Below, piece after piece: positions 33,348-53,634 of a stretch of 64,000 nucleotides of DNA. The stretch's first letter is position 1, and the number at the start of each line of letters is the position of its first letter. Below the pieces are notes generated by a model. That model had not been told where the DNA came from, ran no database searches, and was given only the letters and a program-made list of their open reading frames with translations. Both the position numbers and the translations under genes were made by a program. This stretch comes from Lignipirellula cremea. GTDB taxonomy: Bacteria; Planctomycetota; Planctomycetia; Pirellulales; Pirellulaceae. The DNA is taken from the NCBI RefSeq assembly GCF_007751035.1, contig NZ_CP036433.1, forward strand, positions 9,157,001 through 9,221,000. The letters run 5' to 3'.

Positions 33348-34532
33348 TTAGTCGGCCATTTCCAGGGCGATCTGGGCGATCTCTTCCAGGCCGGCGAAGA
33401 AGGCGTCCAGCACCTGCGGGTCGAAGTGCTGGCCGCGGCCTTCTTCGAGAATCTCGCAGCAGCGTTCCAGCGGCATCGGGTCTTTATAAGGACGCCGCGT
33501 ACTCAGGGCGTCAAACACGTCGGCGACGGCTGTGATCCGGCCTTCCAGGGGAATCTCTTCGCCGGTCAGGCCCAGTGGATAGCCAGAGCCGTCCCACTTT
33601 TCGTGGTGGCTCATGGTGATCGTCGCGGCCGCTCGAAGAACGGGCGAAAGGGTCAAATGCTCCGGCGACGTCTGGCTAAGCACCATGCTGTTCTCGCTGC
33701 TGGGCGCGCCGCGGAGAATGTTCATGCCGTATTCGCAGTGCAACTGCATGTGGGCCATTTCTTCCGCGTTCAGGCGGCCTGGCTTGTGCAGAATGTCGTC
33801 GGGAATCCCAATCTTGCCGACATCGTGCAGAATGGCGGCCTGCTCGATGGTCTCGGCGTCATGGCTGCTGTATCCCAGCCGCCGGGCGATCACGCCGGCG
33901 AACCGGCCGACGCGCAACACATGGTTGCCCGTCACACGATCGCGATATTCGCCCGCGCAGGCCAGCACGCGGATGATGTCCCGATGCGATCGCACCAGCT
34001 CGGCCGTGCGCTGCTGGACCTCTTGTTCCAGCCGTTTGGAGTAGGCCGCCATTTGATCATGATGGGCCTTGAGCACCAGGGCGTTGCGCACCCGCGGGAC
34101 CAGTTCCGTCGGTTTGACGGGCTTGTTCAAAAAGTCGGTCGCCCCCAGTTCCAGGGCGCAGGCTTTGGTGTGTTCGTCGGTGGTCGCCGTCAGGAACAGA
34201 ACGGGCAGATGGGCCAGTTCAAGGTCGCCGCGGACGGCATCCAGAAGATCCAGTCCGCTGACACAGGGCATCATAATATCCAGCAACAGCACATCGGGCC
34301 GCTGGCTACGGATGATCTCCATCGCTTCGCTGGAGTCGCTGGTCGTAATGAAGTTCTCGTACCCGGCGATGCCCAGGTACTTTTGCACTACTTTGATATT
34401 GATCGGCTCGTCGTCGACAATCATGATCGTTCCCGGGTGCGCTTCGATCACTCGACGCGCCGGCCGATCGCGCCTTTCGGCCGACGGCGGGTAACCCGGG
34501 TTCGCATCAATTCGCCCTGCAGGCACTTTCAT
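33348..34532 (-). CDS. Response regulator with HD-GYP c-di-GMP phosphodiesterase output
   Basis: A 394-residue RpfG-type regulator. A receiver domain (about 35-150) has acidic pocket DDE in TIMIVDDEP, the phospho-acceptor Asp in LLLDIMMP and Lys in NKPVKP. A coiled-coil linker (EQEVQQRTAELVRSHRD) leads to an HD-GYP domain (about 190-390) with intact HDVGKIGIPD, HHEKWDGSGYP and the trailing VADVFDALSTRRPYK block. Such proteins hydrolyse cyclic di-GMP when phosphorylated. The kinase gene lies 339 bp upstream in the same direction and is the obvious candidate partner, since its HPt domains could phosphorylate this receiver. ATG 34532 abuts GAGGAG (34533-34538); the in-frame GTG at 34526 has better spacing and may be the true start. 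Confidence 0.93.
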   Translation of the reverse strand: MKVPAGRIDANPGYPPSAERRDRPARRVIEAHPGTIMIVDDEPINIKVVQKYLGIAGYENFITTSDSSEAMEIIRSQRPDVLLLDIMMPCVSGLDLLDAVRGDLELAHLPVLFLTATTDEHTKACALELGATDFLNKPVKPTELVPRVRNALVLKAHHDQMAAYSKRLEQEVQQRTAELVRSHRDIIRVLACAGEYRDRVTGNHVLRVGRFAGVIARRLGYSSHDAETIEQAAILHDVGKIGIPDDILHKPGRLNAEEMAHMQLHCEYGMNILRGAPSSENSMVLSQTSPEHLTLSPVLRAAATITMSHHEKWDGSGYPLGLTGEEIPLEGRITAVADVFDALSTRRPYKDPMPLERCCEILEEGRGQHFDPQVLDAFFAGLEEIAQIALEMAD

Positions 34533-34871
34533 CTCCTCGAGCAGACAGTATCGTTGCTGCGCAACTGACTGCGATGGTTCGCCTCTGGGAATGGTCGCTC
34601 GCGCACTCGTTCCCCTTCCCAGTCTCCACCCTGTCGCGTCAGGCTGGGAAGACGGCAGTCCTCCTCGACACTGGCGGCTTGCTCCTGGCGGCTTTTTATC
34701 ACCAGGCTATCACCGGGCTATCACCGAGAAATCCTCCAGGTTTATCTTAGCTTACAGTACCGCTAACGGCCGGTTTGACAGGGGACAAACCTGGTTTTCT
34801 CGACATACGCGGCGCACGCGTTACCCGGAACAGACCACTCCCAGCGAGGATGTAGCAGAGGGTGGCTGGGC
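34533..34871. other. Gap between the HD-GYP regulator and the hybrid kinase
   Basis: A 339-bp gap in the leftward signalling locus. It contains a short direct repeat GGCTATCACCG twice in 22 bp (about 34705-34730), with a related TATCACCAG just before, read leftward as CGGTGATAGCC. This could be an operator-like site for the regulator gene, but that is speculative. I see no gene. Confidence 0.45.
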
Positions 34872-37800
34872 TTATCGCACGGGGGCCGCAATCTCGATCC
34901 GGGCGGCGATCCGCCGCAACCCGGCAATCACGCCAGAAATGGCCGTCTCTTGACGCGTTTTAACCAGTTCTTCCAGTTTTTTCGCCGGCGCCGTGAAGGC
35001 GTCAAAACCGGCCGTACCGCCGGAACCTTTGAGCCAATGGGCCAAGGCGGCAAGTTCCTCGTACTGCTGCTGACCGCAGGCCGTTTCCATGGCGTCCAGT
35101 TGCATATGCAAACGTTCCGTAAACTCCTCGACAATCTCGCGGAAGTCCTCATCATCCGTCGGCAAGCTCGAAAACAAAGGCGGCTCCGTCTGGCCCTGCT
35201 CCCGTTCCGTCGACAGCGGCTGGGGCGATCGCGAAGAGGCCGGCCCCGGGCCGCCTGTAGAAACGGAATTTGCGGCCGACGACGATTGCGACGGCGGCAA
35301 TTGTGGCAGCGGTTCAACGGGCAAGTCAGGTTTGGCCTCCAGCTCCGGGAGAGCAAGGTCTGCAGTCGCCGGCGGACCGGCCGAAGGGGCGGACAAAGCA
35401 GGCGGAGGCGAAAGATCGATCCGCTCGGCGAGTTGGATCAGCTCCTCCATCAGGGCCGGGTATCGGTCCCCCTTTTGCGATCGGGCCGCTTGCTCCAGCT
35501 CCACGGCCGGTCGGTCAAACGCCTCAAAGCCAGCGGTGCCGCCGGAACCTTTCAGCCAGTGTGCTAATCGCAGTACTTCGTCGTGATCACCCGAGTCGCA
35601 AGCCCGATGCATGGCGGCCAGCTGCTCCAGCAAACGAACCACAAACTCCTGGGCGATCTCGCGGAACTCTGGATCCTCCATCGGCAAGCTGCAGCGCAGC
35701 GGCTCCCGGGAAAGTTGGGCCAGCGGAATCGTCCGCGACTCGACCGGCATGCTGACGTCGGGCAGGGCGCGAGGGACAGGAGCCGAGACAGCCGGTTTGA
35801 CCGCGGGACGTTTTGGATCGGGAGACGGCAGACCCTGCTGCAGCAGAATCTCGTTCAGCGTGGAAAGCAGGAGATCAATCTGGATCGGCTTCGTCATAAA
35901 GTGGCTGCAGCCGGCGTCCCGGCATTTGGCTTCGTCCCCTTGCATGGCGTGGGCCGTCATGGCGACGATCGGCCCCGCGTATCCGGCGCTGCGCAGCGTC
36001 GTACTGGCGGTGTAGCCGTCCATTACGGGCATCTGCATATCCATCAGAACCACATCGAACGATTCGGACAGGGCGCGTTCCACCGCCAGCTGGCCGTTGG
36101 CCACGCAGACCACTTCGACGCCAGCCCGGCGAAGGACCAGTTCAATCAACTTGCAATTGGACACGCCGTCGTCAGCGGCCAGGATGCGGGCGGCTGGCAG
36201 CTGCAGCACTTCCTGGCGTTCGGCCCGTTCCTCGCTGGCGGCCACGGCGGCCGTTTGTGCATTGATGAGCCTGATCCCGGCGATCGGGCCCACGTTGACG
36301 GTGACGGTAAACGTGCTTCCCTGGCCTGGCTCGCTGGAGACGGCAATCCGGCCGCCCATCGCTTCGGCCAGCTGCTTGCTGATCGCCAGCCCCAGACCGG
36401 TGCCGCCGAATTTTCGCGTGACCGAGGAATCGGCCTGGGAAAACGGAGAAAAAATCCGCTCCTGCACTTCCTCGGGCATGCCGATGCCGGTATCGATCAC
36501 CTTGATCTGCAGCTGGGCGGGCGTGGACAGGTCCGCCGGCTTGAGCAGCTGCACCACCAGGGTAACGCCGCCGGTTTCGGTGAATTTGATCGCATTGCCG
36601 ATCAGATTGATCAGAATCTGATGCAGCCGCACGCCGTCGGCCAGCATGGTTTCGGGCAGGTCGCTGGCAAACACCACCTCCAGCGAGATCCCTTTTTCGG
36701 CCGCTTTGACCTGCATCACGGATTCCGCCTGGCGGATCAGTTGATGGGGCGACCGTCGGGTCAGCTCCAGCTCCATTCGGCCGGCTTCGATCTTGGACAG
36801 ATCGAGAATGTCGTTAATGAGCGTGAGCAAGTGCTCGCCGCTGCTATGAATCGTGTCCAGATACTCCTGCCGGTCGCGAACGCTTTCATCAAACCCGCGA
36901 CGCAACACGTCGGTATAACCCAGAATGGCATTCATGGGCGTACGGATTTCGTGGCTCATGCGGGCCAGGAAGTCGCTCTTGGCCTGGTTCGCTTCGTCGG
37001 CCACCTGCTTGGCTTCGCGCAGATCACGGCGGGTTGCTTCCAGCTGGGTGACGTCGTCGAAACTGACCAGCACGCCCCGGTACTTGCCATCATGGCCCAG
37101 TACGGGCGAGGCGTTGGCGATCAGCGTCTGCGTGGCCTTGTTCTTCCGCGCGAGTCCCAGCATGACGCCCACTTGCGGCGTTTCCAGGCGGATCGCCTCC
37201 ACCCACGGATAGCGGTCGGGCTTGCCGCCTTCGACCCCTTTGACCCAGCCCAGGCCAATCGCTTCCGCGCCGGTCAGCTTCTCGGGCGAACGGCCGACCC
37301 AGGTGGCGAACGACTGGTTGGCCAGCACAATGCGGCCATTCTTGTCAATCACCAGCAACCCTTCGGCGAGCGAATCCAGCGCGGTGCGGACCCTTTTGGG
37401 CACCGTTTGCGAAGGATCCAGATGGGCGATCATTTTCTTCAGATACAGCAGATACAGCAGGTAGCAGGCAGCCGTCACGAAGCATGTCATCCGGACCCAG
37501 GGGCGTTCCAGCCAGCCGAGGACGCCGGGCCGGTTCATAGGACGAAACAGCAACTCGACGCTGCCCCACTTTTCTTTCCCCGCGCGGATCGGCACCAGTA
37601 ACCGGTCTTGGGTGGATTGTTCGGCGTCGGGTTGGACCTGGACCGGTTCTCCCACCGTCGCCAGCGCCAGTCCATCCGCACGTTGAACGTGGGCGGACAA
37701 AACATCCTCATTACGATCGACCAGCATCTGCAGCACTTGCTCCAGCCGCCGAAGCTCTCCGCGACCGATATAATCGGAGCTGGTAATCGCGATCGCTTCG

Positions 37801-37937
37801 CCCAGATTCGCGCGCCCGGTCCGAATGGCGGACTGCCGCTCCGGCACGATGCCCAGCATCATGGCGGTGCAAAGCACGCTGACCAGCAGGCAGGCCAGGC
37901 CGATCGCGATTCGAGTTTTGGTGGTGAGCAATCTCAT
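34872..37937 (-). CDS. Hybrid sensor histidine kinase with PAS, receiver and two HPt domains
   Basis: A 1021-residue membrane kinase. Residues 1-190: TM1 (IAIGLACLLVSVLCTAMML), a ~110-residue periplasmic sensor, and TM2 (FVTAACYLLYLLYLKKM). A PAS domain follows (LDSLAEGLLVIDKNGRIVLANQSF, shown in part). HisKA has the phospho-accepting H329 in MSHEIRTPMN, and the ATPase domain has DTGIGMP and GTGLGLAI. The receiver has its acceptor Asp at D633 in LMDMQMP. Two HPt domains at the C-terminus carry H793 and H967, both in AHWLKGSGGTAGF. The whole phosphorelay is therefore on one chain, with two similar HPt outputs. The start ATG overlaps the stop of the giant-protein gene by 4 nt, so translation is coupled. 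The sensor region is homologous to that of the diguanylate cyclase two genes upstream. Confidence 0.93.
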   Translation of the reverse strand: MRLLTTKTRIAIGLACLLVSVLCTAMMLGIVPERQSAIRTGRANLGEAIAITSSDYIGRGELRRLEQVLQMLVDRNEDVLSAHVQRADGLALATVGEPVQVQPDAEQSTQDRLLVPIRAGKEKWGSVELLFRPMNRPGVLGWLERPWVRMTCFVTAACYLLYLLYLKKMIAHLDPSQTVPKRVRTALDSLAEGLLVIDKNGRIVLANQSFATWVGRSPEKLTGAEAIGLGWVKGVEGGKPDRYPWVEAIRLETPQVGVMLGLARKNKATQTLIANASPVLGHDGKYRGVLVSFDDVTQLEATRRDLREAKQVADEANQAKSDFLARMSHEIRTPMNAILGYTDVLRRGFDESVRDRQEYLDTIHSSGEHLLTLINDILDLSKIEAGRMELELTRRSPHQLIRQAESVMQVKAAEKGISLEVVFASDLPETMLADGVRLHQILINLIGNAIKFTETGGVTLVVQLLKPADLSTPAQLQIKVIDTGIGMPEEVQERIFSPFSQADSSVTRKFGGTGLGLAISKQLAEAMGGRIAVSSEPGQGSTFTVTVNVGPIAGIRLINAQTAAVAASEERAERQEVLQLPAARILAADDGVSNCKLIELVLRRAGVEVVCVANGQLAVERALSESFDVVLMDMQMPVMDGYTASTTLRSAGYAGPIVAMTAHAMQGDEAKCRDAGCSHFMTKPIQIDLLLSTLNEILLQQGLPSPDPKRPAVKPAVSAPVPRALPDVSMPVESRTIPLAQLSREPLRCSLPMEDPEFREIAQEFVVRLLEQLAAMHRACDSGDHDEVLRLAHWLKGSGGTAGFEAFDRPAVELEQAARSQKGDRYPALMEELIQLAERIDLSPPPALSAPSAGPPATADLALPELEAKPDLPVEPLPQLPPSQSSSAANSVSTGGPGPASSRSPQPLSTEREQGQTEPPLFSSLPTDDEDFREIVEEFTERLHMQLDAMETACGQQQYEELAALAHWLKGSGGTAGFDAFTAPAKKLEELVKTRQETAISGVIAGLRRIAARIEIAAPVR

Positions 37938-40900
37938 TCAGACGCTTTCTCGGGACGGTCGGACGGATCGTCTGCTTGTGGATGCGGCGACTCCGGTTCT
38001 GTCTCAGATTCTGGCTCGTCCGGTTCGAGCAGCGATTCCAGAGAATCGTCGTCCTCGCCGCCAGCCAAAGGAGCTTCCTCGTCCAGATATTCCAGCATGA
38101 CCAGCGGGTCCATCAGTCGCCAGGCAGGCAACTGGGCCAGCAGGCTTGTCATCAGCCAGCCGCTGCGGATCGTCCAGATAACGTAGCCCACACTTAAGGC
38201 GCCGGAGACCCCCGCGGCCGAACCGGCAGCCAGCAGAGGAATCTGGTCGTCGCCCTGAAGCTCCTGGCGGAGTTCTCCCAGGTCCTCCCAGAGCAACCCG
38301 GCGTCAAACGATTCCCCCAGCGAAAGCAGCGTTGGCGAAACGTCCTGCGCTGTCGCCTGGAGGGCCCGCTCCAGCTGCCTGACCGCTTCCGTAGCCGTTG
38401 TAGCCACGTAGTTCTCCGGTCCCGACTGGCGCAACTCGGCGATGGCGGGCAGTTCCGCCGCCGACGCGGTTGTCGGCTCGTCGGCTTCGCGGGACCGCAA
38501 CACCTGGGCGACCACCAGCGACGCGTCCGGCGTGTGTATCTCCGGGTTCGCCAGCTGCGGCTCCTGCGAACTGTCCTCCACCACTTCCTCCGGCGGAGAC
38601 GGCGGCGCTACCGCCGCGGGCGGAGCCGGCGGAGGGGCCGGTCCGACCGGGATCACCGAATCCGGCGAGTTGACCACGACGGTGACCGTCGAAGTGGTTG
38701 TTCCGCCAACACCATCGACGATCTGATAAACAAAGCTGTCGAGACCCGTAAAATCCGGACCAGGCCTATACTGGAACGTTCCATCAGGCAGCAACGACAG
38801 GACGCCATTGGCCGGACCGGTCGCCAGCGACACCAGCAGCGCGTCGCCGTCTTCATCCTGACCCTGAACGACCGCGGCGAGTGTTTGCCCCTGGCCAACC
38901 GTGTAGCTGCTGTCGCGGCTGACAGGCGCTTCATTCACATTGCTCACCGCCACGCGCACCAGCTGGGTGTCCGCCCCGCCCAGTCCATCGGCGACGCGCA
39001 CCTGCACTTCGTAAACATTGTCGCGTCCGCCATCGAGCGGATTCTCAAAGTTGGGCGCGTTTTTGAACGCCAGGTCGCCGGTCACGGCGTCAATCGTCAG
39101 CAACGAAGCGTCCGCTCCTCCGGTGATCGACCAGATCAACGGATCGCCGTCGACGTCGCTCGCGGTTGATGTGCCGGCCGCCGTCGAATTCTCCATCGCC
39201 AGCATAATGGCCGACGACGTAATCACCGGCGATTCATTCACCTGCAGCACGGTCGCCCGCAGATTCTGCACCGTCGTGCGGCCGTTCCCGTCATCGGCCG
39301 TGACGGCCACTTCATAGACGTTATCGACGTTCGCATCCGACGGTGATTCAAAGTCAGGAGCCGTTACAAACGATAGCGCCCCGGTCGCGGCGTTGATCGT
39401 AAACCGAGCCTGGTCGGCGCCGCCCGTGATGGCGTAAGTGATCGTCTGGCCCGGCAGGTCGGCGTCGGTCGCCTGGACCGTTTGCACAAACGTCGTGTTC
39501 TCCGCCACGTTCACTGTCGCAGGCGAACTGAACACGGGACTGTTATCGTTCACCGGCAGCACGGTCACGCTCAGCGTTTGCGGCGTCACGCCGCCGGCGT
39601 TGTCGCTGGCGCTGACTTCGACCTGATAGACGTTATCAGCGTTCGCATCCGTCGGCGCTTCAAAGTCGGGAGCCATCGCAAATGACAGAGCGCCCGTCGT
39701 CGCGTTGATCGTAAACCGAGCCTGATCAGCCCCGCCGGTGATGGCGTAAGTGATCGTCTGGGCCGGCAGGTCGGCGTCCGTCGCCTGGACCGTTAGCACG
39801 AACGTCGTGTTCTCCGCCACGTTCACTGTCGCAGGCGAACTGAACACGGGACTGTTATCGTTCACCGGCAGCACGGTCACGCTCAGCGTTTGCGGCGTCA
39901 CGCCGCCGGCGTTGTCGCTGGCGCTGACGACAACCTGATAGACGTTATCAGCGTTGGCATCGGTCGGCGTTTCAAAGTCGGGGGCCGTTACAAATGATAA
40001 CGCGCCGGTCGTGGCGTTGATCGTAAACCGAGCCTGGTCGGCCCCGCCCGTGATGGCGTAAGTGATCGTCTGGCCCGGCAGGTCGGCGTCGGTCGCCTGG
40101 ACCGTTTGCACGAACGTCGTGTTCTCCGCGACGCTGACCGTCGACGGCGACGTGAACGCCGGATTGTGCTCGTTCGCCGGCAGGACCGTTATTCTCAGCA
40201 ATTGGGTAATACTGCCACTGGCGCCGTCATCTGCTTTCAATACGATCTGGTAGACGTTGTCTCTGTTCACATCCTGCGGTGATTCAAAGTCCGGAGCCGT
40301 CACAAACGACAGGTCGCCCGTTGCGGCGTTAATCGTGAAGAGCGACTGGTCGGGGCCGCCGGTGATGGCGTAGGTCACTGCCTTGCTCGGCAGGTCGGCG
40401 TCCGTCGCCTGGACCGTTTGCACGAACGTTGTATTTTCCGCCACATTCACGTTCGCTGGGGAGGTGAACACGGGACTGCTCTCGTTCACCGCCAGAACCG
40501 TCACCTGGATCGTCTGCGAATCGCTAGAGCCGCTTCCGTCGGAAACTTCCACTTCCACGTCGTAGACGTTATTCGCGTCCCCATCGGTCGGCGATTCGAA
40601 GTCAGGCGCCGTGACAAAGCTTAGCTGGCCGGTGCTGGAATCGATGGCGAACCGGGCCGCATCGGCTCCGCCGCGGATTGCATAAAGGGGCGTATCGCCG
40701 TCGATATCAAACGCCGTGACCGTCACGACGTCCAGCTCATTCTCGTTGACGCTGATCGCACCTGTCGCACCCCCGCCCAGCGAGGTGATCTGCGGAGTGT
40801 CGTTGACGGGGTTCACCTGGATCGTAACGGTCGTCGTGTTGCCGTCGCCCGAACCGTCGTTCGCTTTGTAAGTAAACGTATCGATCCCGGTGAAGTCGGC

Positions 40901-43828
40901 GACCGGCGTATAGCTGAAGGAGCCGTCGGAATTGAAGGCAAAGGACTGCGCGTTCGCCGGGGCCGAACCGACCAGAATCGCCGTGAAGGCTTCATTCTCA
41001 ATGTCGGCGTCGTTTGTCAGCACGCCGCCGGGACCTTCCACCGCGCCGTAGTCAAGGAAGGCGTCCGCCATGGACAGGTACTGGGCCTCGATCCAGTCGG
41101 CCGAGCGCTCGATTGTTTCCAGCCGCACTTCGTCGATGACGCCGTCGAAGGTGCGGTCGGTCGCGCCGGAGCGATTGCCAATCGCCAGGTCATTGGCGGC
41201 ATCGGAGATCGCGCCGCCCAGCGGAAATAAGATCTGCGTCAAACCCACGGATGCCCCATTGATAAAAATCTGGGGATCGTTCGCGGTTGAGCTGCTATCG
41301 TAAACGACGGTGACCTGTTGCCAGGCGTCCAGCGAAATGCTGTCAAGCGGCGTGTACCAGCGACCATTGGTGATGGAGAATCCGAATTCAAACGCTAAAC
41401 GGTTTCCGGTCGAATCGACTTCGAGAGACCAGCCCGAGGTAGTGAGCGTGGTGACGGATTTATCCAGGATCCGGCCCTCGCCCAGTTCGCCCCAGTCCGC
41501 CGGATTGATCCAGGCGGAAACCGTCGCGCCGCCATCGAACAGATTGTTGATGCTGGGGTCGGCGGCGATATCGACCCGGTCGTTCGAGCCGTCGAACGAC
41601 TGGCCGCCGGCGATCTGGCCGCTGGCGTCGGTGGAGCCATTGTTCACGCCGTCGTTGCCGTTGGCCGTGGCGTCCTTGAGATCACCATCCAGGTGCGACA
41701 CGAGCGCGTAACTGCTGGACCAGACGCCCGACGGATTCTGGTTGTCGGCGGCCGCGGCGTTGCTGTAGTACATCCAAAGGTAGTCCGTGTCCGAAGCGGC
41801 GTCGATCTGCGGAATGCGGACCCATACATACGACGTTCCGCCTTCGTTCCACTCTTCGATCTCATACGCCAGCTCCGTCCCGTCAGCGTCGACAAACCGC
41901 AGATCCTGGCCCGCGTCCTGCACCTGGTCGTAGTCGATCCGGCTGGCGTCGAGCGTGACCAGCACGGGAAAGTCGACCAGATTCTCGGCCGAGGCCAGGT
42001 TCTTCAGACTCAGCTTCTGCCGCGCCTGCCAGGCCGCGTCGAACCAGTCCGGCGCCGTGTGCAGCGACGTGTCTCCCTCAATCGTATAACTGTCGGCGGC
42101 CGCAACAGGAGGTTTGTTGACGCCCGGGAAATCCGAACTGACCACGGCCAGGCCGGTGATCGTTTCCTTTCCCTCGTCCTCCAGGCCGATATCGGAACCA
42201 TCCAACAGCAGCGTCGCTGTCGCCGCCGTGCCAGGCGCCGGGTCCTGTTCGGTCTGCGTCACCTGAAGCGCCAGCACGTCAAACTCTTCCTGCGCCTGCC
42301 CCGCCAGCACGCCGGCCCTATTGACCTGCACCAGCAGCGTGCCTGCGGCGAGCGTGGAGGAGCCAAACTGCGTGTCCTGCTGCAGCAGATGCAGTCCCTG
42401 GATCTGGTCGCCCGTGTTTCCCAGAACGGCGCCGGTCAGCAAGACCTCCACGACATCGGCGGCCGAGTTTACGCCCGTGCCGGTGATGTGCAGCGTAGAG
42501 ATATCTTCATGGTTGGGATTGGAGTGGGCGACCAGGAACGTGCCGGCGGTCAGGGTCGTTCCGCCCACCACGGTGTCGGTTTCCACTAGCGTCAGGGCAT
42601 ACACGTTGAACGTATTTGAAGCATCCCGCACCTGGTCGTCGAGCAGCATGAAGTACTCGCCAGCGCTATAATCGCCGGGGGCATCCGGGCGATAAACGAC
42701 CAGATCTTTCCGGTCGGCGTCGAAGTCGTTGCCTGGATCGCCGTCGTTTTCGTTCAGCGTCACAATCTTGTCGAACGCCAGCACCAGGTCGCCGCTGCGC
42801 AGATCAAAGTGGTTTGGGTTGGCGCCGATCGTGATATTGGATTCGACATAGTGCAGCCCGCGGACAATCTCAGGAGCCGTAAATCCAGGAAAAAGGGCAA
42901 GCGTACCACTGGTGAGGCCGGCTTCGCTGTCGAAAGTATCGCCCGCATCGCCAAAAGTAACGATGTCGGTCTTGCTCCAGGTGGTTCCGCCCGCGTCTCC
43001 GTCGCCTTTGGTGGTAAAGACCAGTTCCCCCTGGGCGTCGGCCAGCGTGCTGCGCCAGGTCTGCTGGAGGGTTGCGCTAAAAGCGATTTCGGTATGAACT
43101 TCCCCCTGCCGGAATTCCAGGTCCCAGTCGCCTCCCAGGTCGGCGTGCCCGGTCAGGTCGTCGCTGGCGGCCACATCGCAATCGCACAGCGCGCCGATGG
43201 CGGCGGCCAGGCTACGGCCGTCTTCGGTCGAAGCCAGATCGCACCCGTAGATCAACAAATCGGCGCCGTCGCGCAGCGCACCCTGCCAGGCGGCCAGATC
43301 GCCCGCATAGCCGGCAAGGCTATCCACGGACAACCGCGTCGAGCCCAGGTGGAACTGGCCAGCGGAGCCATGGGTGACCAGATGGACGGCGTCGACCTCC
43401 TGGTAACCGGCCAGAATTTCTCGAATCTGCGTCACTCCGTCGCGCTGGTTGTCGAGCAGATACACTTCCCGCTCGACGTGGTCGGAGGCGTCTTCCAGCA
43501 GGTCGTCGATCAACTGTTGATAGTTGTCGGCCTCCGTATCGACAAACACCAGTTCCAGCCGGGCGGCCTGTTCGTCGGCCCCCTGGGACCGCTCCTGGAA
43601 ACGAAATTCCTCGGAGTCGATGGGCGGCGCCGCATTGTTCCAGAGCGCAGGATCGGCGGCGGCGACCTGGTCGGGCGCGGGGAATGCTGCGGGGGTTGCG
43701 GCGACTTCGCCAGCGCCGGTCGGCAGCGGAGCCGCGCTCAGCATGATGCGCGCTTCCAGCTGTGCGGCGTCGCAGATCGACCTCGTCCGGGAAGGCGCCG
43801 GTTTGCGGCGGGGGAACCAATCAGCCAT
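37934..43828 (-). CDS. Giant LEPR-XLL/DUF4347 cadherin-repeat protein (giant 1)
   Basis: A 1964-residue probable surface protein. It has no classical signal peptide; instead LEARIMLSA at residues 24-32 matches the LEPR-XLL (LEPRVLLSA-like) N-terminal motif of planctomycete giant proteins. DUF4347 spans about 91-260 with HLVTHG (H153) and IYGCD (C196). Residues ~262-590 are an unassigned beta-rich region. Then come DUF2341 (~598-715), a LamG/concanavalin-like domain (~720-920), a cadherin-like tandem domain, about six cadherin repeats (~1015-1620) with DxDxD-type calcium sites, and another cadherin-like domain. A Pro/Glu-rich segment follows, then hydrophobic VSGALSVGYVIWTI and an acidic tail, suggesting a C-terminal membrane anchor. 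The gene overlaps the cyclase gene by 8 nt and the kinase gene by 4 nt, so expression is tightly coupled. Likely role: calcium-dependent adhesion or surface structure. Confidence 0.88.
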   Translation of the reverse strand: MADWFPRRKPAPSRTRSICDAAQLEARIMLSAAPLPTGAGEVAATPAAFPAPDQVAAADPALWNNAAPPIDSEEFRFQERSQGADEQAARLELVFVDTEADNYQQLIDDLLEDASDHVEREVYLLDNQRDGVTQIREILAGYQEVDAVHLVTHGSAGQFHLGSTRLSVDSLAGYAGDLAAWQGALRDGADLLIYGCDLASTEDGRSLAAAIGALCDCDVAASDDLTGHADLGGDWDLEFRQGEVHTEIAFSATLQQTWRSTLADAQGELVFTTKGDGDAGGTTWSKTDIVTFGDAGDTFDSEAGLTSGTLALFPGFTAPEIVRGLHYVESNITIGANPNHFDLRSGDLVLAFDKIVTLNENDGDPGNDFDADRKDLVVYRPDAPGDYSAGEYFMLLDDQVRDASNTFNVYALTLVETDTVVGGTTLTAGTFLVAHSNPNHEDISTLHITGTGVNSAADVVEVLLTGAVLGNTGDQIQGLHLLQQDTQFGSSTLAAGTLLVQVNRAGVLAGQAQEEFDVLALQVTQTEQDPAPGTAATATLLLDGSDIGLEDEGKETITGLAVVSSDFPGVNKPPVAAADSYTIEGDTSLHTAPDWFDAAWQARQKLSLKNLASAENLVDFPVLVTLDASRIDYDQVQDAGQDLRFVDADGTELAYEIEEWNEGGTSYVWVRIPQIDAASDTDYLWMYYSNAAAADNQNPSGVWSSSYALVSHLDGDLKDATANGNDGVNNGSTDASGQIAGGQSFDGSNDRVDIAADPSINNLFDGGATVSAWINPADWGELGEGRILDKSVTTLTTSGWSLEVDSTGNRLAFEFGFSITNGRWYTPLDSISLDAWQQVTVVYDSSSTANDPQIFINGASVGLTQILFPLGGAISDAANDLAIGNRSGATDRTFDGVIDEVRLETIERSADWIEAQYLSMADAFLDYGAVEGPGGVLTNDADIENEAFTAILVGSAPANAQSFAFNSDGSFSYTPVADFTGIDTFTYKANDGSGDGNTTTVTIQVNPVNDTPQITSLGGGATGAISVNENELDVVTVTAFDIDGDTPLYAIRGGADAARFAIDSSTGQLSFVTAPDFESPTDGDANNVYDVEVEVSDGSGSSDSQTIQVTVLAVNESSPVFTSPANVNVAENTTFVQTVQATDADLPSKAVTYAITGGPDQSLFTINAATGDLSFVTAPDFESPQDVNRDNVYQIVLKADDGASGSITQLLRITVLPANEHNPAFTSPSTVSVAENTTFVQTVQATDADLPGQTITYAITGGADQARFTINATTGALSFVTAPDFETPTDANADNVYQVVVSASDNAGGVTPQTLSVTVLPVNDNSPVFSSPATVNVAENTTFVLTVQATDADLPAQTITYAITGGADQARFTINATTGALSFAMAPDFEAPTDANADNVYQVEVSASDNAGGVTPQTLSVTVLPVNDNSPVFSSPATVNVAENTTFVQTVQATDADLPGQTITYAITGGADQARFTINAATGALSFVTAPDFESPSDANVDNVYEVAVTADDGNGRTTVQNLRATVLQVNESPVITSSAIMLAMENSTAAGTSTASDVDGDPLIWSITGGADASLLTIDAVTGDLAFKNAPNFENPLDGGRDNVYEVQVRVADGLGGADTQLVRVAVSNVNEAPVSRDSSYTVGQGQTLAAVVQGQDEDGDALLVSLATGPANGVLSLLPDGTFQYRPGPDFTGLDSFVYQIVDGVGGTTTSTVTVVVNSPDSVIPVGPAPPPAPPAAVAPPSPPEEVVEDSSQEPQLANPEIHTPDASLVVAQVLRSREADEPTTASAAELPAIAELRQSGPENYVATTATEAVRQLERALQATAQDVSPTLLSLGESFDAGLLWEDLGELRQELQGDDQIPLLAAGSAAGVSGALSVGYVIWTIRSGWLMTSLLAQLPAWRLMDPLVMLEYLDEEAPLAGGEDDDSLESLLEPDEPESETEPESPHPQADDPSDRPEKASE
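39426..40673 (-). repeat. Cadherin-coding tandem repeats, 312-bp period
   Basis: The motif encoding YAITGG recurs at 39426, 39738, 40050 and 40362, exactly 312 bp (104 codons) apart. The first two units share a stretch of over 100 bp that is almost unchanged, pointing to recent duplication or gene conversion. They code for VNVAENTTFVQTVQATDADL-type cadherin repeats. Confidence 0.85.
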
Positions 43829-46445
43829 CGACGTCCTCTCCCTGTTCGCCAGGCGAGCGGTCGTCGTCGAACGTGAAAGGGAACCCGGAAACGGGAACGA
43901 CCATGGTTTTCATTTCCAGGGGCGGGCCATCCGGCTCCAGCGGCGGCGCGTCCTTCTCATCCTGGGGCGGCGCGTTCTTCTTTTCCTGCGGCAGCGCGAG
44001 GAGTTGCGAGGCGGGAGTCGCCGCCTCGTTCAGCCAGGCGCGCTGGGCCGAACGGCAAAGGTCCACCAGTTCGTTCGTCCTCAGCACCAGGTCCTGCAGT
44101 TGCTGGTCCTCGCCGGCAGCCGCTTCCAGGTGGGCCGCGGCCGCAGCGATCTGCGGCGATCCAAACTTCACCGCGGTCCGGTTGAGGCGGTTCGCCAGCA
44201 CCGCGATGCCGCTGCGGTCCTGGTTTTCCAGGGCGGCCGACAGACGCTCGATCTGGGCGGCAAAACTCACGGCGGCCGACTTCGACGCTTCAATCGCGGG
44301 GGAAGACTTCCGCGGGTCGCGTCCGCCGACGGCATCGATCAGGCGTTCGACGACCTCGGGATCAAACTGGCGCCCTGCACAACTGCGGAGTTCGGCGAAC
44401 GCCTGCTCCCGGCTGATCGCTTCTCGATAAGCCGCTTGATGGGTCATCGCATCGTAGGCGTCGGCCACGGCCAGGATCCGTGCGGACATCGAGATATCTT
44501 CGCCTGCGGGCGCGCCGGGCTGCGCGTCGTTGCCGCCGTACCAGGACCGATAGGTGCGCAGAATTTCGGTCAGTTTCAGGCAGGCGAACGTGGACTGCAT
44601 GATCTCGGCGCCGATCCGTTCGTGCGAGTTCATCACCTCCCATTCTTCGTCGGTCAGCTTTCCGGGTTTCAGCAAAATGGAGTCGGGCACGCCGATCTTG
44701 CCAATATCGTGCAGCAAGGCGGCGATCTCCAGGGTGTGGGACTCGCTGGCCGACATCAGCCGACGCGCGGTCGCCACGCAAAGTTCGGCCACCCGCCGGG
44801 AGTGGTCGGCGGTGGACAGGTCGCGATACGCCAGGGCGGAAAGCAGTGCCGTCACCGCATGGAACGGGATCGCAGGCTCGTGGTCGTCGGTCGACGTCGA
44901 ATCCTCGTCGCGAACCTGGGCCGGCGCCTCGCCCTGCTGTTCAAACTGGGCGATGCTGTCGGCGGCCAGGTCGAAGCGGATAACCCGGTTGCGTCCTTCG
45001 CGTTTGGCCACGTACAGGCACTTGTCCGCCTGATCGATCATTTCCTGGGGACTGGCGCCCTGCAGCGAACGGGCCGAAACGCCCACGCTGGCGGTTACGG
45101 AAAGCCCGTTGAAATCCTGTTTCTCCACGGACTGGCGGAGCTGTTCGGCCACGACGAACGCCTCTTCAAGTTCGGTGTCTGGCAGGCAGATGCAGAATTC
45201 TTCGCCCCCATAGCGGCACACCAGGTCGCCCGAGCGTACGCCCGAGCGCAACAGCCCGGCCGCCATTTCCAGGACCATATCGCCGGCCTGGTGTCCATGC
45301 GTGTCATTGACCAGCTTGAAGTGGTCGAGGTCAAACATAATACAGGCCAGCGGTCCATTCTGGCGAAGGGCGAGGTTCCAGTGGGTTTCCAGCTGGGTGA
45401 AGAAGGCTCGCCGGTTCAGGCAGTCCGTGAGCGGATCATGGGCGGCGATGCGTTCGAGTTCCAGGTTGTGGCGATGAATTTCGTCGCGCGACTGGCTGAG
45501 CGTTTCGAGCATTTCCCGCAGCTGCTCGCGGTTCTTTTCAATCTCCGTGACGTCGTCGAAGCTGGCCATCGCTCCGCGACGTTCGCCGTCGTCGCTGTAG
45601 ACCGCCATGGCGCTGACTTTCAGCGTGCGGCGCTGCTGGTTCCTGTCGACAATGGTCAGCAGGTCGTCCATCTGCAGGGCGTCGTCGTGCAGAGCGCGTT
45701 GCCAGGGAAAGCCCTCGGTCCCTTCTCCCCGGACGTCGGATTCCCATGGCAGGTCCGACGCTTTACGCCCCATGAGATCCTCGACGGCGGCGCCAATGCT
45801 CTGGGCGAAAGCCTGGTTCGCCAGCAGGATGCGCTCATTCTTGTCCAGCACCAGGAGCCCTTCCGCCAGCGTGTCCAGCGTTTGCCGCACCCGGCGAGGA
45901 ATCACGCGTGAAGGATCCAGCTGCTTCAGCATTTTCTGCAGATAGAAAAAATACAGCAGGTAAGAAGCGCCGGCGAAGAACAGTCCCAGATTCGCCACCG
46001 GCGGCAATCGCCAGGCGGCGAAGCCTGCCTGTTCGGCCGAGTCGCGGAAGCGGACTTCGATGGAGCCCCAGTCAGCCGTCCCCGCAAAAATGGGGACCCG
46101 CATCTGCGACGGCGTGGACTGTTTGCCCGGGGGCAGCGTCCAGCTATTTACATGCGGACCGATCGCCAGCAGCACCGTTCCGTCGGGACGACGCACGCCC
46201 GCCGATTGCACCGCCTTGTTCCGCCGGACCAGTCCCTCCAGGGCCAGTTCGATGGCTTGCGTATCGTTCCGGCTGGCCAGCAGCGAGCAGTTCCAGGCGA
46301 CGTTTTCACACAGCGCCGCGCGGCCGTCGATCTCGGCCTGCCGCCGGTCCGGCAACATTCCCAGAGCGTAGGCAACCAACCAGACGCTCATGGTCAAACT
46401 GACCAGGCCCAGGGTGATGCGCGTTGTCGCCGAGATGATTTTCAC
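43821..46445 (-). CDS. Membrane diguanylate cyclase (GGDEF) fused to a degenerate HD-GYP domain
   Basis: An 874-residue signalling protein. The N-terminal sensor (TM1 ITLGLVSLTMSVWLVAYALG, a ~115-residue periplasmic part, TM2 FFAGASYLLYFFYLQKM) and the following PAS domain (LDTLAEGLLVLDKNERILLA) are homologous to the hybrid kinase. A coiled coil leads to a GGDEF domain with GGEEF at about 413-417 and an RxxD inhibitory site (RSGD) five residues earlier, so c-di-GMP synthesis with product feedback is expected. The HD part has LLHDIGKIGVPD but reads YRSWYGGNDAQPG where HHExxDGxGYP is expected, so hydrolysis is doubtful. GTG 46445 aligns with the kinase N-terminus; a GTG at 46526 is an alternative. 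It is the first gene of the leftward operon; its stop overlaps the giant-protein start by 8 nt. Confidence 0.9.
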   Translation of the reverse strand: MKIISATTRITLGLVSLTMSVWLVAYALGMLPDRRQAEIDGRAALCENVAWNCSLLASRNDTQAIELALEGLVRRNKAVQSAGVRRPDGTVLLAIGPHVNSWTLPPGKQSTPSQMRVPIFAGTADWGSIEVRFRDSAEQAGFAAWRLPPVANLGLFFAGASYLLYFFYLQKMLKQLDPSRVIPRRVRQTLDTLAEGLLVLDKNERILLANQAFAQSIGAAVEDLMGRKASDLPWESDVRGEGTEGFPWQRALHDDALQMDDLLTIVDRNQQRRTLKVSAMAVYSDDGERRGAMASFDDVTEIEKNREQLREMLETLSQSRDEIHRHNLELERIAAHDPLTDCLNRRAFFTQLETHWNLALRQNGPLACIMFDLDHFKLVNDTHGHQAGDMVLEMAAGLLRSGVRSGDLVCRYGGEEFCICLPDTELEEAFVVAEQLRQSVEKQDFNGLSVTASVGVSARSLQGASPQEMIDQADKCLYVAKREGRNRVIRFDLAADSIAQFEQQGEAPAQVRDEDSTSTDDHEPAIPFHAVTALLSALAYRDLSTADHSRRVAELCVATARRLMSASESHTLEIAALLHDIGKIGVPDSILLKPGKLTDEEWEVMNSHERIGAEIMQSTFACLKLTEILRTYRSWYGGNDAQPGAPAGEDISMSARILAVADAYDAMTHQAAYREAISREQAFAELRSCAGRQFDPEVVERLIDAVGGRDPRKSSPAIEASKSAAVSFAAQIERLSAALENQDRSGIAVLANRLNRTAVKFGSPQIAAAAAHLEAAAGEDQQLQDLVLRTNELVDLCRSAQRAWLNEAATPASQLLALPQEKKNAPPQDEKDAPPLEPDGPPLEMKTMVVPVSGFPFTFDDDRSPGEQGEDVDG

Positions 46446-46952
46446 GAGCAAGATTCTTTTCTGGTCGTCCGAATGATGAGGCGCGCCGCGGTCGACGTCC
46501 GTGGGCCTGTCGCCGTCGCCACTCACCGCAGGCGGGGCGACGGCCTATTCCAGCGACGGTCGCTGCCTCCTGCAGCACTGCCGGGGAAAAGTCCGCCGCA
46601 GAAGCGGTGCACTTTCGACCCGCCTGGAAAATGCGGGCACACATCGGCAATCGTGTAATCCTAGGTTACGTTTCTAACGCCCGCGGGAAGCCGCCTTTTT
46701 CCGATTTGCCGGAGGAATCGCTGCGGACGAACATCGCGCAAACTTGACTCCCCCCGCCTTCGCCCTCACAACCCCTGCAACCTGCAGATCAATGAGCTCC
46801 CAGGGGTAGGATTAGGCCGAAAGAAGCAGCTGCAACACGGCGCGTGGTGGATTCGCTTCAATCGGCTGGCGGCGACGTCAACCTTGCCGGGCGGGTCAGC
46901 CGAAACCCTGATAATGCGTAACAGTCGCGTTTGAGGGACCGAACGGATTGCC
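46446..46952. other. Divergent control region between signalling operon and export cluster
   Basis: About 500 bp between the leftward cyclase gene and the rightward TolC-like gene (426 bp if the cyclase starts at 46526). It must hold both promoters if the two loci are controlled from here. I see only a CCTAGG palindrome near 46660 and a CTGCAACCTGCAG near 46780; neither is a recognised operator. No RNA gene is apparent. Confidence 0.5.
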
Positions 46953-48986
46953 ATGAATTGGAATTTCATCAACACGCGAATCTTGCTGGCAGGCGGCTTC
47001 ACGCTCTGGCTGGCAACGACCGCCATGGCGCAGCCGCATGGTGCGTGGTCCCCGCCGCCGCTTCCGGCGCCGCCAGCGAGCGCGAGTCCCTACCCGGGTT
47101 CGGATCAGCAGCCCGTACGCTTGCCGCCGGTCGAGGACGATTTCCGCCCCGGCCATTCATCCGCACCCCGGGTAACGTCCTTACCGGAAATACTGCCGCT
47201 TCCGCCAATGTCGCAAGTTCCGGCGACGCGCATTGCGCCGTCTGATTCGTCTGTCCCGCCTGCCGTCGCGCCGCTGCGCACCCGTCCTATCGGCGGCGCT
47301 GGCGGCGCCACTTCGTACGTCCTGCCGCCCTTACCGGAAGACCAGGCGGTCCCCGACTACGCCAGCCTGGACTACGACACCCAGCATCCGGTCAAACCAG
47401 AAACCGACATGCCTGCCAGCTTCGTACCCTGGTGGCAACCGGCCACGACCCGCCCGCTGCGCAATCCGACCGAAGGCATGGCCGTGGACGCCAACTCCCT
47501 GGTCGTCGACGCCCTGCGCTACTCGGCCCAGGTCCGCGCCATCAGCGATAACGCGCTGATCACGCAGGCCAGCATCACCCGCGCGGCGGCCGAGTTTGAC
47601 GTGCACACCTTTATGGAATCCAAGTTCATCCGCACCAGCATTCCGACCGGCAGCACGCTCGAAGCCGGTTTCAATGTGCCGCGGCTGCGCGAAGAAGACG
47701 GCTATATTCGCGCGGGCGTCCGCAAAAAGAACAGCCTGGGCGGCAGCTTCGAAGTGTCGCAGCAAGCCGGCCTGCGCGACAGTAACTCCCAGTTCTTTTT
47801 TCCGGGCCAGCAAGCCAACTCGCGCTTGACGCTGGGTTATAACCAGCCGCTCCTGAACGGCGCCGGCAAGGCGTACAACAACAGTCTGGTCGTGCTGGCC
47901 AATATCGACACGCGGGTCGCCGCCAATCGCACCGCCGCCGAGCTGCAGGACCACCTGCTCGAAGTCACCGAAGCGATGTGGGAGCTGTACCAGCAGCGCA
48001 CCGTCCTGCTGCAGAAACAGCGCCACCTGGAACGGGCCCAGGTCATTTACGAGCGACTGGCCCAGCGCCGGGGCATCGACTCCCTGGAAAGCCAGGTCCT
48101 GCGGGCCCGGGCCGCCGTGTCGCTGCGCCGGGCCGAACTGATCCGCGCCGGCACCGCCATTCGTAACGCCGAAGCCCGGGTGCGGGCCCTGGTGAACTCG
48201 CCCGACATGCTCTCGAACCGCCAGACCGAACTGGTTCCCGTCGAGCCGCCGATCCACAACTTTATTCCCGTTTCGATGGACGAGGCGATCTACCTTGCTC
48301 TGGAAAACCGGCCGGAAATTAACACCGCCACCAAAGAGATCCAGGCCGCCCGGGTGCGGCTCAATGTGGCCGAGAACGAGCTGATGCCTGTGCTGGATCT
48401 GGTGCTGGAAACGTATGTCAGCGGTCTGCGCGGCCAGTATAACGTGGGCCGGTCCTGGGCCGACCAGTTCGCCGTGGGCGAACCCAGCTACACCGCCGGA
48501 CTGGTGTTTGAAGTCCCCTACCAGCGGCGGGCCGCCAAAGCCAATTTCCAGCGCCGACAGATCGAACTGCGGCAGCTGTCCAGCCGACTGCAGGTCGCCA
48601 TTGAAACGCTCCACGCTGATGTGGAAGTGGCCGTCCGCGAAGTCGAAACGGCCTACCGGGAAATGCAGGCCCGCTACGTCTCGATGGCGGCCGCCGACAG
48701 CGACGTGTGTTATCTGCAGAGACGCTGGGAGGAGTTGCCGGGCGACGACCGGGCCGCCAGCTTCCTGCTGGCCGATCTGCTCGACGCGCAAGACCGCCTG
48801 GTGCTGGAAGAATTCGGCTTCTCCCGCTCGCATGTTGACTACACGCTGAGCCTGACCCGTTTGAAAAGGGCGACCGGCACGCTGCTGCAGTACGAAGAGA
48901 TCGAGCTGGTCAAAACCGAAGCCGACTGCCTGCCGGTGATCGAGTTCCAGAAAGCTTTCGCGGCGCCTCCCACAGCCGGCCCCTGA
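46953..48986 (+). CDS. TolC-family outer-membrane channel protein
   Basis: A 677-residue exported protein with a signal peptide (hydrophobic ILLAGGFTLWLATTAMA). An unusually long Pro-rich segment (about 28-165) precedes the outer-membrane efflux protein domain (about 175-650). That domain shows the two-fold repeated layout of long amphipathic helices and strands of TolC-like trimers (for example VLLQKQRHLERAQVIYERLA, then ALENRPEINTATKEIQAARV). TolC channels provide the outer-membrane exit for type I secretion and efflux. The Pro-rich insertion could cross the wider planctomycete periplasm or anchor to the wall; this is speculative. The SecA-like gene starts 2 bp after the stop, so they are co-translated or co-transcribed. 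Adaptor and M50 genes follow on the same strand. Confidence 0.86.
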   Translation: MNWNFINTRILLAGGFTLWLATTAMAQPHGAWSPPPLPAPPASASPYPGSDQQPVRLPPVEDDFRPGHSSAPRVTSLPEILPLPPMSQVPATRIAPSDSSVPPAVAPLRTRPIGGAGGATSYVLPPLPEDQAVPDYASLDYDTQHPVKPETDMPASFVPWWQPATTRPLRNPTEGMAVDANSLVVDALRYSAQVRAISDNALITQASITRAAAEFDVHTFMESKFIRTSIPTGSTLEAGFNVPRLREEDGYIRAGVRKKNSLGGSFEVSQQAGLRDSNSQFFFPGQQANSRLTLGYNQPLLNGAGKAYNNSLVVLANIDTRVAANRTAAELQDHLLEVTEAMWELYQQRTVLLQKQRHLERAQVIYERLAQRRGIDSLESQVLRARAAVSLRRAELIRAGTAIRNAEARVRALVNSPDMLSNRQTELVPVEPPIHNFIPVSMDEAIYLALENRPEINTATKEIQAARVRLNVAENELMPVLDLVLETYVSGLRGQYNVGRSWADQFAVGEPSYTAGLVFEVPYQRRAAKANFQRRQIELRQLSSRLQVAIETLHADVEVAVREVETAYREMQARYVSMAAADSDVCYLQRRWEELPGDDRAASFLLADLLDAQDRLVLEEFGFSRSHVDYTLSLTRLKRATGTLLQYEEIELVKTEADCLPVIEFQKAFAAPPTAGP

Positions 48987-48988
48987 CC

Positions 48989-50902: not shown

Positions 50903-51104
50903 ACCGCACGCCGGGCGCTCCTGCCCGATCAGAACCACGACGCAGCTTCTCCTCGCTATCACGCAGAAAACCGCGTGCCATGAGAGCCAAGGACGGTTAC
51001 TATGGAACTTGCCGCAAGGGAATGATGGAGTGACAGGCTGACAACCTTGCAGCCTGCAGGTAACAAGGGGATCATTCTAGAAGCAAGTTATGCGGTGAGA
51101 ATTT

Positions 51105-52273: not shown

Positions 52274-52792
52274 ACGGTTAGTTGGACGGGTTTTTCCGTC
52301 CAGCAAAAAAGGCCGCCCCAGCTTTGGAATGGCTGCAGCCATCCCTTGCCTGCGGAGGATGCTCGCGGTTTCCCTGGCTCCCGTCTGGCTGGGACAGACA
52401 ACAGCCATCCCTTGATTCCTGACGACTCTCTTGGCTTCCGCCTGCTGGTGCTGCGTCTTGATCGTGAACGTGCAACCGCGTGGATTCTACAGCCAAGTCG
52501 ACGCATGGCCGCCACTGGCGATTGCAACGCCTTTCCGGATTACGCCGATACCGCGGACGGTCGACGCCGTGTTTCTTGTGATGACTTTCCGCAACATGGG
52601 GTTCTGTGACCTAAGTTTGCAAAGGCGAAGCAGGGTTGTTCCGCGGCGGATTGCGCAGCGGGACCGTGCTGTTCGCCCCCCTGAGCAGCTGCACGAGGTC
52701 GTCGAGGAAACGGTCGCCAAGGCCGTTCCGGGATGCGACCGACCGGGCACGGGTCCAGGCGAATCAGACTCCCACCGCATGAGATCCTACCG
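52274..52792. other. 519-bp gap between SUKH genes and the adaptor gene
   Basis: It begins with a terminator-like hairpin. At about 52335-52470 there is an imperfect ~65-bp direct repeat; both units open with CAGCCATCCCTTG and continue with loosely matching TGGCTTCCGCC/TGGCTCCCGTC-type sequence. Nothing coding is evident, and the leader of the adaptor gene occupies the last ~100 bp. Confidence 0.5.
52284..52301 (+). terminator. Candidate hairpin terminator after SUKH 2
   Basis: GGACGG, loop GTTTTT, CCGTCC: a perfect 6-bp stem 10 bp after the SUKH 2 stop. The T run is in the loop, and an A run follows the stem, so on the minus strand it would look more like an intrinsic terminator. Confidence 0.35.
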
Positions 52793-53629
52793 ATGAATTT
52801 GACCAGTCGAAGGCTTTCCCTTTCCCAGCTTTTCCTTCGCGGCTGCGTGGGTCTGGCGGCGGCGTTGCTGCTTGCCGGCCCGGCCCTGGCCGTGGAGCTG
52901 GAAGGGTTTGTGGAGCCATACCGCACGATCAGCGTCGCTTCCGATGAGACGGGCGTGATCCAGGAAGTCTTCGTTCGCGAAGGGCAGCGGGTGGAAGCGG
53001 GTCAGCCGCTGGCGCGGCTCAACAGCGACGTCCATCAGGCTCTGCTGGCGATCGCCGAACAAAGCATGCTGGCCGAAGGCCGTATCGATGCCGCCCGGGC
53101 CGATGTGGAGATGCGCCGGCGTCGTCTGGAGAAACTCCGGTCCCTGCGGCTGGAAGGCCATGCCCGACAGGAAGAAGTCGATCGCACGGCCGGCGAAGTA
53201 GCGGTTGGTGAGGCGAATCTCCGCTCGGCCCTGGAAGACCAGCTGAACAAGCGGCTGGAATATGAAAAGATCAATGCCCAGATCACCCGTCGCACCGTCA
53301 AGGCGCCGATTGCCGGCGCGATCATTCGGCTGCACAAAGTGGCGGGCGAGTTTGTTGCGCCGAACAGTCCCGACGTGCTCACGCTGGTGCAGCTGGATAT
53401 GCTGCTGGCCAACTTCACGCTGATGAGTCCGGACTCGGCCAAACTGCAGGTCAATCAGACCGTGCCGGTGCGATTCCTGCCCGGCGGCGTCGAAGCGACC
53501 GGCGTGGTGGAGTTTGTCTCTCCCGTGACCGACGCCGAAAGCGGAACGGTCCTGGTCAAGATTCGCATTGATAACGCCCAGGGCAAATTCCGCAGCGGCG
53601 AACGCTGCTCCATTCGCATCGGGAACTGA
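52793..53629 (+). CDS. Periplasmic adaptor (HlyD/RND membrane-fusion) protein
   Basis: A 278-residue exported adaptor. After a signal peptide (FLRGCVGLAAALLLAGPALA) comes a biotinyl-lipoyl half (VEPYRTISVASDETGVIQEV, then VREGQRVEAGQPLARLN), an alpha-helical hairpin (about 80-165), the second lipoyl half (TVKAPIAGAIIRLHKVAGEF) and a beta-barrel domain to the end. Such proteins bridge inner-membrane machinery and TolC. It is short for the class because the membrane-proximal domain is missing or reduced. The start at 52793 gives the signal peptide; the upstream in-frame ATG at 52733 does not. The GAF-adaptor gene starts 5 bp after its stop, showing an operon with the next genes. Confidence 0.88.
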   Translation: MNLTSRRLSLSQLFLRGCVGLAAALLLAGPALAVELEGFVEPYRTISVASDETGVIQEVFVREGQRVEAGQPLARLNSDVHQALLAIAEQSMLAEGRIDAARADVEMRRRRLEKLRSLRLEGHARQEEVDRTAGEVAVGEANLRSALEDQLNKRLEYEKINAQITRRTVKAPIAGAIIRLHKVAGEFVAPNSPDVLTLVQLDMLLANFTLMSPDSAKLQVNQTVPVRFLPGGVEATGVVEFVSPVTDAESGTVLVKIRIDNAQGKFRSGERCSIRIGN

Positions 53630-53634
53630 GTCCA

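Follow-up and report, generated by a model that had tools for sequence, protein, structure and literature searches.

Overlap of giant-protein and signalling genes in Lignipirellula cremea

The planctomycete Lignipirellula cremea (family Pirellulaceae) carries a gene for a giant putative surface protein, giant 1, whose two ends are overlapped by genes for cyclic diguanosine monophosphate (c-di-GMP) synthesis and for a histidine kinase. We analyzed a stretch of 64,000 nucleotides around this gene (positions 9,157,001-9,221,000 of a single-contig genome of 9.57 Mb), here called the window; coordinates below are positions in it. The cyclase, giant 1, kinase and response regulator genes are all coded on the minus strand, and are laid out as follows.

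43821..46445, minus strand: sensor diguanylate cyclase, with a transmembrane (TM) helix, an extracytoplasmic PAS-like domain, a second TM helix, PAS, GGDEF, HD and an HPt-like tail
43821..43828, minus strand: overlap of the cyclase stop and the giant 1 start, 8 nt
37934..43828, minus strand: giant protein 1, 1964 aa, with an LEPR-XLL-like N terminus (LEARIMLSA), DUF4347, DUF2341, cadherin/Big_9 repeats and a C-terminal motif
43042..43552, minus strand: DUF4347 domain of giant 1, predicted caspase/CHAT-like fold with conserved His-Gly and Cys
38015..38290, minus strand: C-terminal motif of giant 1, about 92 aa, SVGYVxWxxRxGxLxxSLLxxLPAWxxxDPLxxL plus an acidic DDDSLE tail
37934..37937, minus strand: overlap of the giant 1 stop and the kinase start, 4 nt, ATGA
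34872..37937, minus strand: sensor hybrid histidine kinase, 1021 aa, with a TM-PAS-TM-PAS sensor, HisKA, HATPase, REC, HPt and HPt
33348..34532, minus strand: response regulator REC-HD-GYP, 394 aa, HD and HHE..GYP motifs intact

A preliminary description of this DNA had pointed to the two overlaps and to an HD-GYP regulator gene just downstream. Both overlaps are present in the sequence as claimed, with AGGGAGAGGA preceding the ATG of giant 1; the regulator gene is there as well, but it is not overlapped with the kinase gene, since 339 nt separate the kinase stop from the regulator start. The name diguanylate cyclase holds insofar as the GGDEF domain has intact GGEEF and I-site motifs, to which must be added an HD domain (by Pfam) that has neither HHE nor GYP and an HPt-like tail that lacks the histidine. 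The kinase was described by its HPt domains, of which Pfam indeed finds two, but it is a hybrid kinase that also has a REC domain. Judged by its motifs, the regulator is likely to be a c-di-GMP phosphodiesterase. The longest cyclase reading frame spans 46526..43821; we prefer the GTG start at 46445, which gives 874 aa and coincides with the end coordinate in the preliminary description, because the sensor there aligns with the start of the kinase. A scan of 33.2-47.0 kb for consensus promoters and terminators was uninformative, since the counts were not clearly above those in shuffled sequence.

Four features of the window had gone unremarked in the earlier reading: the DUF4347 domain, an exporter operon divergent from the cyclase gene, a second giant protein, and a sensor common to cyclase and kinase. 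This N-terminal sensor (TM, extracytoplasmic PAS fold, TM, PAS) is 41% identical between the two proteins over 311 aa, and they are its only full copies in the whole genome. Its structural model has a predicted local distance difference test score (pLDDT) of 81, and the extracytoplasmic PAS fold matches those of WalK (Z 12.3), the LapD orthologue CdgS9 (10.4) and DvhD (9.7), the comparison (VIA-align) having been scored among Foldseek's own matches.

The sensor often accompanies the C-terminal motif of the giants

A gene overlap by itself proves little, and it is conservation of the overlap that carries weight. We examined 149 genomes of the family Pirellulaceae. The sensor is found in 80 of them (79 among the matches listed) and the giant C-terminal motif in 70; among the matches listed, the two occur together in 68 genomes (Fisher p 6e-28). 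A sensor on the same strand lies no more than 0.9 kb downstream of 84 of the 143 motif matches, in 54 genomes. Gene overlaps of exactly 4 nt occur at 22 of 85 giant/sensor junctions, a set in which two loci appear a second time under another id, and these overlaps include junctions in Denitromonas, Aquabacterium and Ramlibacter. Twenty sensors are not next to a motif; 13 of them are divergent to a TolC gene, 10 of these with the HlyD/M50 set behind it, and at three loci (L212, L217 and L220) TolC alone is recognized across from the sensor. One motif-less sensor comes after a giant whose C terminus has diverged. Short SecA genes stand between TolC and HlyD in three of the divergent exporter sets, as they do in the window.

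The preliminary description had staked its proposal on the order of the three genes being kept in relatives. The order giant, kinase, response regulator does recur, but the exact order cyclase, giant, kinase was met only in the window and once more, in genome G066, and was rejected as a conserved unit; elsewhere the sensor-cyclase sits divergent to the exporter or directly after a giant. The conserved unit is thus a giant followed by a sensor (and often by a phosphodiesterase), plus the exporter.

The association extends beyond the family. A homology search with the full-length kinase returned Pirellulaceae, other planctomycetes and proteobacteria as named relatives, and the giant-kinase order is also present in Denitromonas halophila, Aquabacterium soli, Ramlibacter monticola, a Burkholderiales metagenome-assembled genome (MAG) and a deltaproteobacterial MAG. 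The full sensor occurs in 18 of 300 genomes of the order of Aquabacterium; where Burkholderiales loci were fetched by the sensor alone, the giant C-terminal motif lay directly upstream in 20 of 20, and some of these loci show the run M50-HlyD, SecA, HlyD, giant, kinase, response regulator. Genomes drawn from across the phylum without selection yielded three more with the sensor, and in each the motif lay directly upstream of it. One of these three, a genome of another planctomycete family (G384), has a giant, a sensor-GGDEF gene and a divergent TolC-SecA-HlyD-GAFHlyD-M50HlyD operon as in the window. Counts of the motif outside the family may be slightly low, at most 17 candidates per genome having been scored. 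At one Burkholderiales locus (L264, 18423-19901) a second DUF4347 giant starts directly after the REC-GGDEF-EAL gene.

Signalling outputs attached to the sensor

The gene after the motif very often encodes this one sensor family with a variable output that, by its domains, is always a kinase or related to c-di-GMP. Beside the giant, the 85 junctions comprise 49 kinases, 23 GGDEF-HD proteins, 12 GGDEF proteins and one broken gene; across relatives the outputs are hybrid kinase, GGDEF, GGDEF-HD and GGDEF-EAL, all of which bear on c-di-GMP or phosphorelay. About 11 output changes can be placed on a sensor tree (a quick tree with a weak backbone), which suggests that the link between sensor and giant is the conserved thing.

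Kinases are also commonly followed by a response regulator with an intact phosphodiesterase domain. Among 43 planctomycete kinases beside a giant, REC-HD-GYP is encoded directly downstream of 22 and elsewhere in the locus for three; 13 have none in the fetched stretch, and five left no room for one. In proteobacteria the regulator is REC-GGDEF-EAL (Pfam), and at the fetched Burkholderiales loci it follows all 11 kinases. The HHE..GYP motifs are intact in 28 of 28 cluster REC-HD-GYP regulators and the GGDEF motif in 64 of 64 sensor-linked domains, while HHE is missing from 40 of 41 fused HD domains. From the intact GGDEF and regulator motifs it would therefore follow that one type of sensor feeds synthesis of c-di-GMP directly and its degradation via a phosphorelay.

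Taken together, the adjacency in Pirellulaceae, a second planctomycete family, Betaproteobacteria and one deltaproteobacterial MAG, with outputs swapped, gives strong comparative support to the earlier proposal that the giant surface protein is linked to c-di-GMP and phosphorelay control. The recurrent step from giant to sensor lends the same support to its suggestion that the giant may be what is sensed.

The divergent exporter operon

On the plus strand, divergent from the cyclase gene, lies the following operon.

46953..48986, plus strand: TolC-type outer-membrane factor, first gene of the operon (OEP match)
48989..50902, plus strand: short SecA-like ATPase, 637 aa, ending soon after nucleotide-binding domain 2; not the housekeeping SecA
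51105-52273, plus strand: two SMI1/KNR4 (SUKH) genes, between SecA and HlyD
52733..53629, plus strand: HlyD-type periplasmic adaptor (HlyD match)
53635..55497, plus strand: GAF-TM-HlyD adaptor (domain scan)
55590..57752, plus strand: M50 site-2-protease-like membrane domain (HEISH, NPLMKFDG) fused to HlyD
57908..64000, plus strand: giant protein 2, 2564 aa, running beyond the window end, with LEPR-XLL, DUF4347, repeats and the same C-terminal motif

An operon of TolC, HlyD, GAF-HlyD and M50-HlyD, often with a short SecA, adjoins many copies of the system. No ABC transporter is among the Pfam matches of the operon genes scanned (46953-57752); no genome-wide search for ABC exporters was made. 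Many SUKH proteins confer immunity, so the two SUKH genes may represent an immunity pair that was inserted here. The M50-HlyD protein of Aquabacterium soli (L070, 449-2710) has an N-terminal PqqD-like domain, of the kind that recognizes ribosomally synthesized and post-translationally modified peptides, which suggests how the LEPR-XLL leader could be bound.

Four SecA genes were found in the L. cremea genome: the housekeeping gene, the window copy and two further short ones (G000:C1:3051686 and 3778176). On a SecA tree the planctomycete cluster SecAs form one clade and the proteobacterial short SecAs another, and a supported branch separates both from the housekeeping proteins; three rows labelled "elsewhere" on this tree are betaproteobacterial short SecAs, one of them the Denitromonas cluster gene. 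The copy at 3778176 falls together with a set of genes conserved among G047, G110 and G147, separate from the cluster SecAs. SecA genes also lie about 14 kb from the giant/exporter clusters at G110:C12 (~528 kb) and G085:C1 (~1494 kb), both of one genus; they were rejected as cluster parts, the G110 copy being longer than 1200 aa and housekeeping on the tree and the G085 copy having the same relative position.

Domains of the giant proteins

Giants of the LEPR-XLL/DUF4347 type end in one conserved C-terminal motif, in short form SVGYVxWxxRGG..LPAWxxxDPLxVL, which is so far undescribed. Against the LEPR-XLL model NF012209 (cut-off 17 bits), giant 2 scores 18.5 and giant 1, slightly below the cut-off, 15.4; the Denitromonas and Aquabacterium giants score 25.2 and 22.2. 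Giant 2 and the proteobacterial giants tested thus have both the LEPR-XLL match and DUF4347, and giant 1 has the DUF4347 match, together with DUF2341, five cadherin stretches and Big_9 in the domain scan.

The AlphaFold2 model of DUF4347 (pLDDT 82, predicted template modelling score 0.80) has a caspase-type fold, and its best structural matches are Tce1 (Z 13.4), SAVED-CHAT (10.9) and caspase-3 (8.7). His-Gly and Cys follow successive strands; H68-G69 and C111 are invariant in 12 aligned sequences, and by pattern the Cys is conserved in 25 of 26 and the His-Gly in 24 of 26. The modelled fold does not by itself establish proteolysis, but the domain may cleave the giant, in itself or in trans, and so mature or release it. 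Pseudomonas aeruginosa PA0256 is listed with an uncharacterized DUF4347 domain in a paper on type VI secretion (PMC8262886).

The C-terminal motif has a median Kyte-Doolittle hydropathy of 1.64 over 19 residues. It was rejected as a clear TM helix, the hydropathy of giant 1 (1.49) not being clear. Elsewhere in the window (27002-31735, plus strand) a 1577-aa protein has FG-GAP repeats, DUF7133, HEAT repeats and a C-terminal cytochrome c, with an esterase gene downstream.

Comparison with known systems

A close likeness is to the Lap system (LapA, LapD, LapG and the type I secretion proteins LapBCE) and the Desulfovibrio Dvh system, which share with this locus a giant surface protein, TolC-type export, c-di-GMP logic, and an inner-membrane protein whose PAS-type periplasmic domain (with a predicted fold like those of CdgS9 and DvhD) is coupled to GGDEF/HD. 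Here, however, SecA and M50-HlyD are added and no ABC gene is among the operon genes scanned, the sensor bears an intact GGDEF domain or a hybrid kinase with a phosphodiesterase regulator, and the giant has DUF4347 and another C terminus. The LapG-type protease (PF06035) is absent from 8 of 8 planctomycete genomes, including that of the window, and present in 2 of 4 betaproteobacteria. Because LapG is missing from the planctomycetes, we regard their system as Lap-like in logic and reject its membership of Lap.

In type I secretion, too, giant repetitive substrates have a TolC-type outer-membrane factor and HlyD adaptors as neighbours, but the genes found here include M50-HlyD, GAF-HlyD and a short SecA in place of an ABC ATPase. 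Accessory SecA2 systems also have an extra SecA beside a large surface protein, and matches to SecA2 models are strong, yet under the cut-offs; the hosts here are Gram-negative, the SecA ends soon after nucleotide-binding domain 2, and its partners are TolC and HlyD. LEPR-XLL (NF012209) and DUF4347 (PF14252) are names of domains and not of a described system. The open-licence PubMed Central (PMC) papers searched yielded no exporter or sensor partner for giants with these domains, and no description of the whole giant-exporter-sensor system, including its combination of SecA, HlyD, M50 and TolC.

A proposed circuit and its alternatives

We lean towards the idea, with considerable reservation, that the locus is one copy of a conserved system of giant surface protein, exporter and dedicated sensor, in which a push-pull c-di-GMP circuit works outside-in and takes its reading from the giant or its exporter. 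The exporter, with SecA acting together with HlyD and TolC, would recognize the LEPR-XLL leader and move the giant out through TolC; the hydrophobic C-terminal motif would hold it in the envelope, and the caspase-fold DUF4347 domain would cut it for maturation or release. The extracytoplasmic PAS domain and TM helices of the sensor, presumably in direct contact with the giant, would read giant or exporter as engaged, empty or under load. The sensor-GGDEF arm would then make c-di-GMP, and in the opposite arm the sensor-kinase, via REC and HPt, would switch the phosphodiesterase regulator. In this way c-di-GMP would track the surface protein's state, and could feed back to promote its production or retention.

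Several points weigh against this circuit. Export driven by SecA, and any joint action of SecA with HlyD/TolC, is conjectural. Since the motif is only moderately hydrophobic, membrane anchoring by it is uncertain, and it could instead be an export signal. No sensor gene was found beside giant 2, and it is one of 59 of the 143 motif matches in the family that have no adjoining sensor, some of them at contig ends. The motif profile was trained mostly on giants beside sensors, so the giant-to-sensor count is biased upward (the sensor-to-giant counts are not). The regulator of the window is set apart from its kinase, and nearly a third of the planctomycete kinases (13/43) lack one in the fetched stretch. 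Finally, the signal is perhaps unrelated to the giant, because WalK-like PAS folds bind many ligands.

Control might instead run inside-out, as in LapD and DvhD, with the sensor-GGDEF-HD proteins as c-di-GMP receptors: their degenerate HD domain would bind the nucleotide, and their periplasmic PAS domain would govern whether the giant is retained, processed or exported. The fold of the sensor PAS domain, near CdgS9 and the periplasmic domain of DvhD, would suit this, as would the loss of HHE and GYP from nearly all sensor-HD domains, and DvhD itself offers a precedent, since its HD-GYP domain serves as a switch through which c-di-GMP acts on a periplasmic sensor (PMC13090378). We nevertheless think it unlikely: the GGDEF catalytic motifs are intact without exception, LapG was not found in the planctomycete genomes tested, and the partner met most frequently is a hybrid kinase whose H-box is intact, often followed by a phosphodiesterase regulator, which suits reading a signal in. 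We give similarly little credence to the idea that the sensors monitor a small ligand or envelope or exporter stress, such as stalled TolC/SecA/M50 export, the giant being co-regulated and having no contact with the sensor. WalK- and CitA-type PAS domains do usually bind small molecules or partner proteins, and many sensors are divergent to an exporter rather than following a giant; yet adjacency to the C-terminal motif is commoner, outlasts several exchanges of output, and comes with ATGA overlaps in two phyla.

Genes for adhesins are often neighbours of c-di-GMP genes and 4-nt overlaps are common in operons, so the arrangement might be an ordinary operon, co-transcribed merely for joint production with no sensing relation. 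This we consider very improbable, because co-expression alone would give no reason for the sensor to be singled out: the sensor module is kept while its output swaps among kinase, GGDEF, GGDEF-HD and GGDEF-EAL, and REC is kept while the phosphodiesterase domain changes. Returning to the push-pull circuit, we advance its widest form more tentatively than the circuit itself, namely that planctomycetes and proteobacteria may possess an undescribed envelope system in which a SecA-type motor with M50, HlyD and TolC, and no ABC transporter, exports caspase-fold giants, and a dedicated TM sensor reads their C-terminal motif and moves c-di-GMP levels up as well as down.

Significance for planctomycetes and their giant proteins

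Planctomycetes belong to the bacterial phyla in which huge proteins are most plentiful (PMC11573180), and a list of giant cadherin-like genes exists for Pirellulaceae (PMC7717043); the sections concerned in these two papers leave the export route and control of such giants unexplained. The locus supplies a parts list for them: an exporter, a leader, a retention or export motif, a candidate protease domain and a signalling pair. It would represent c-di-GMP control of the cell surface rebuilt from non-LapG parts and with no ABC exporter among the genes scanned, in which the effector domain is exchanged (HD-GYP for EAL) while the link between sensor and giant persists, and it makes testable how a cell can tell that its giant protein has reached the surface and holds there. 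Pirellulaceae and some Betaproteobacteria thus probably shift between sticky and free living in response to the condition of the giant or its exporter.

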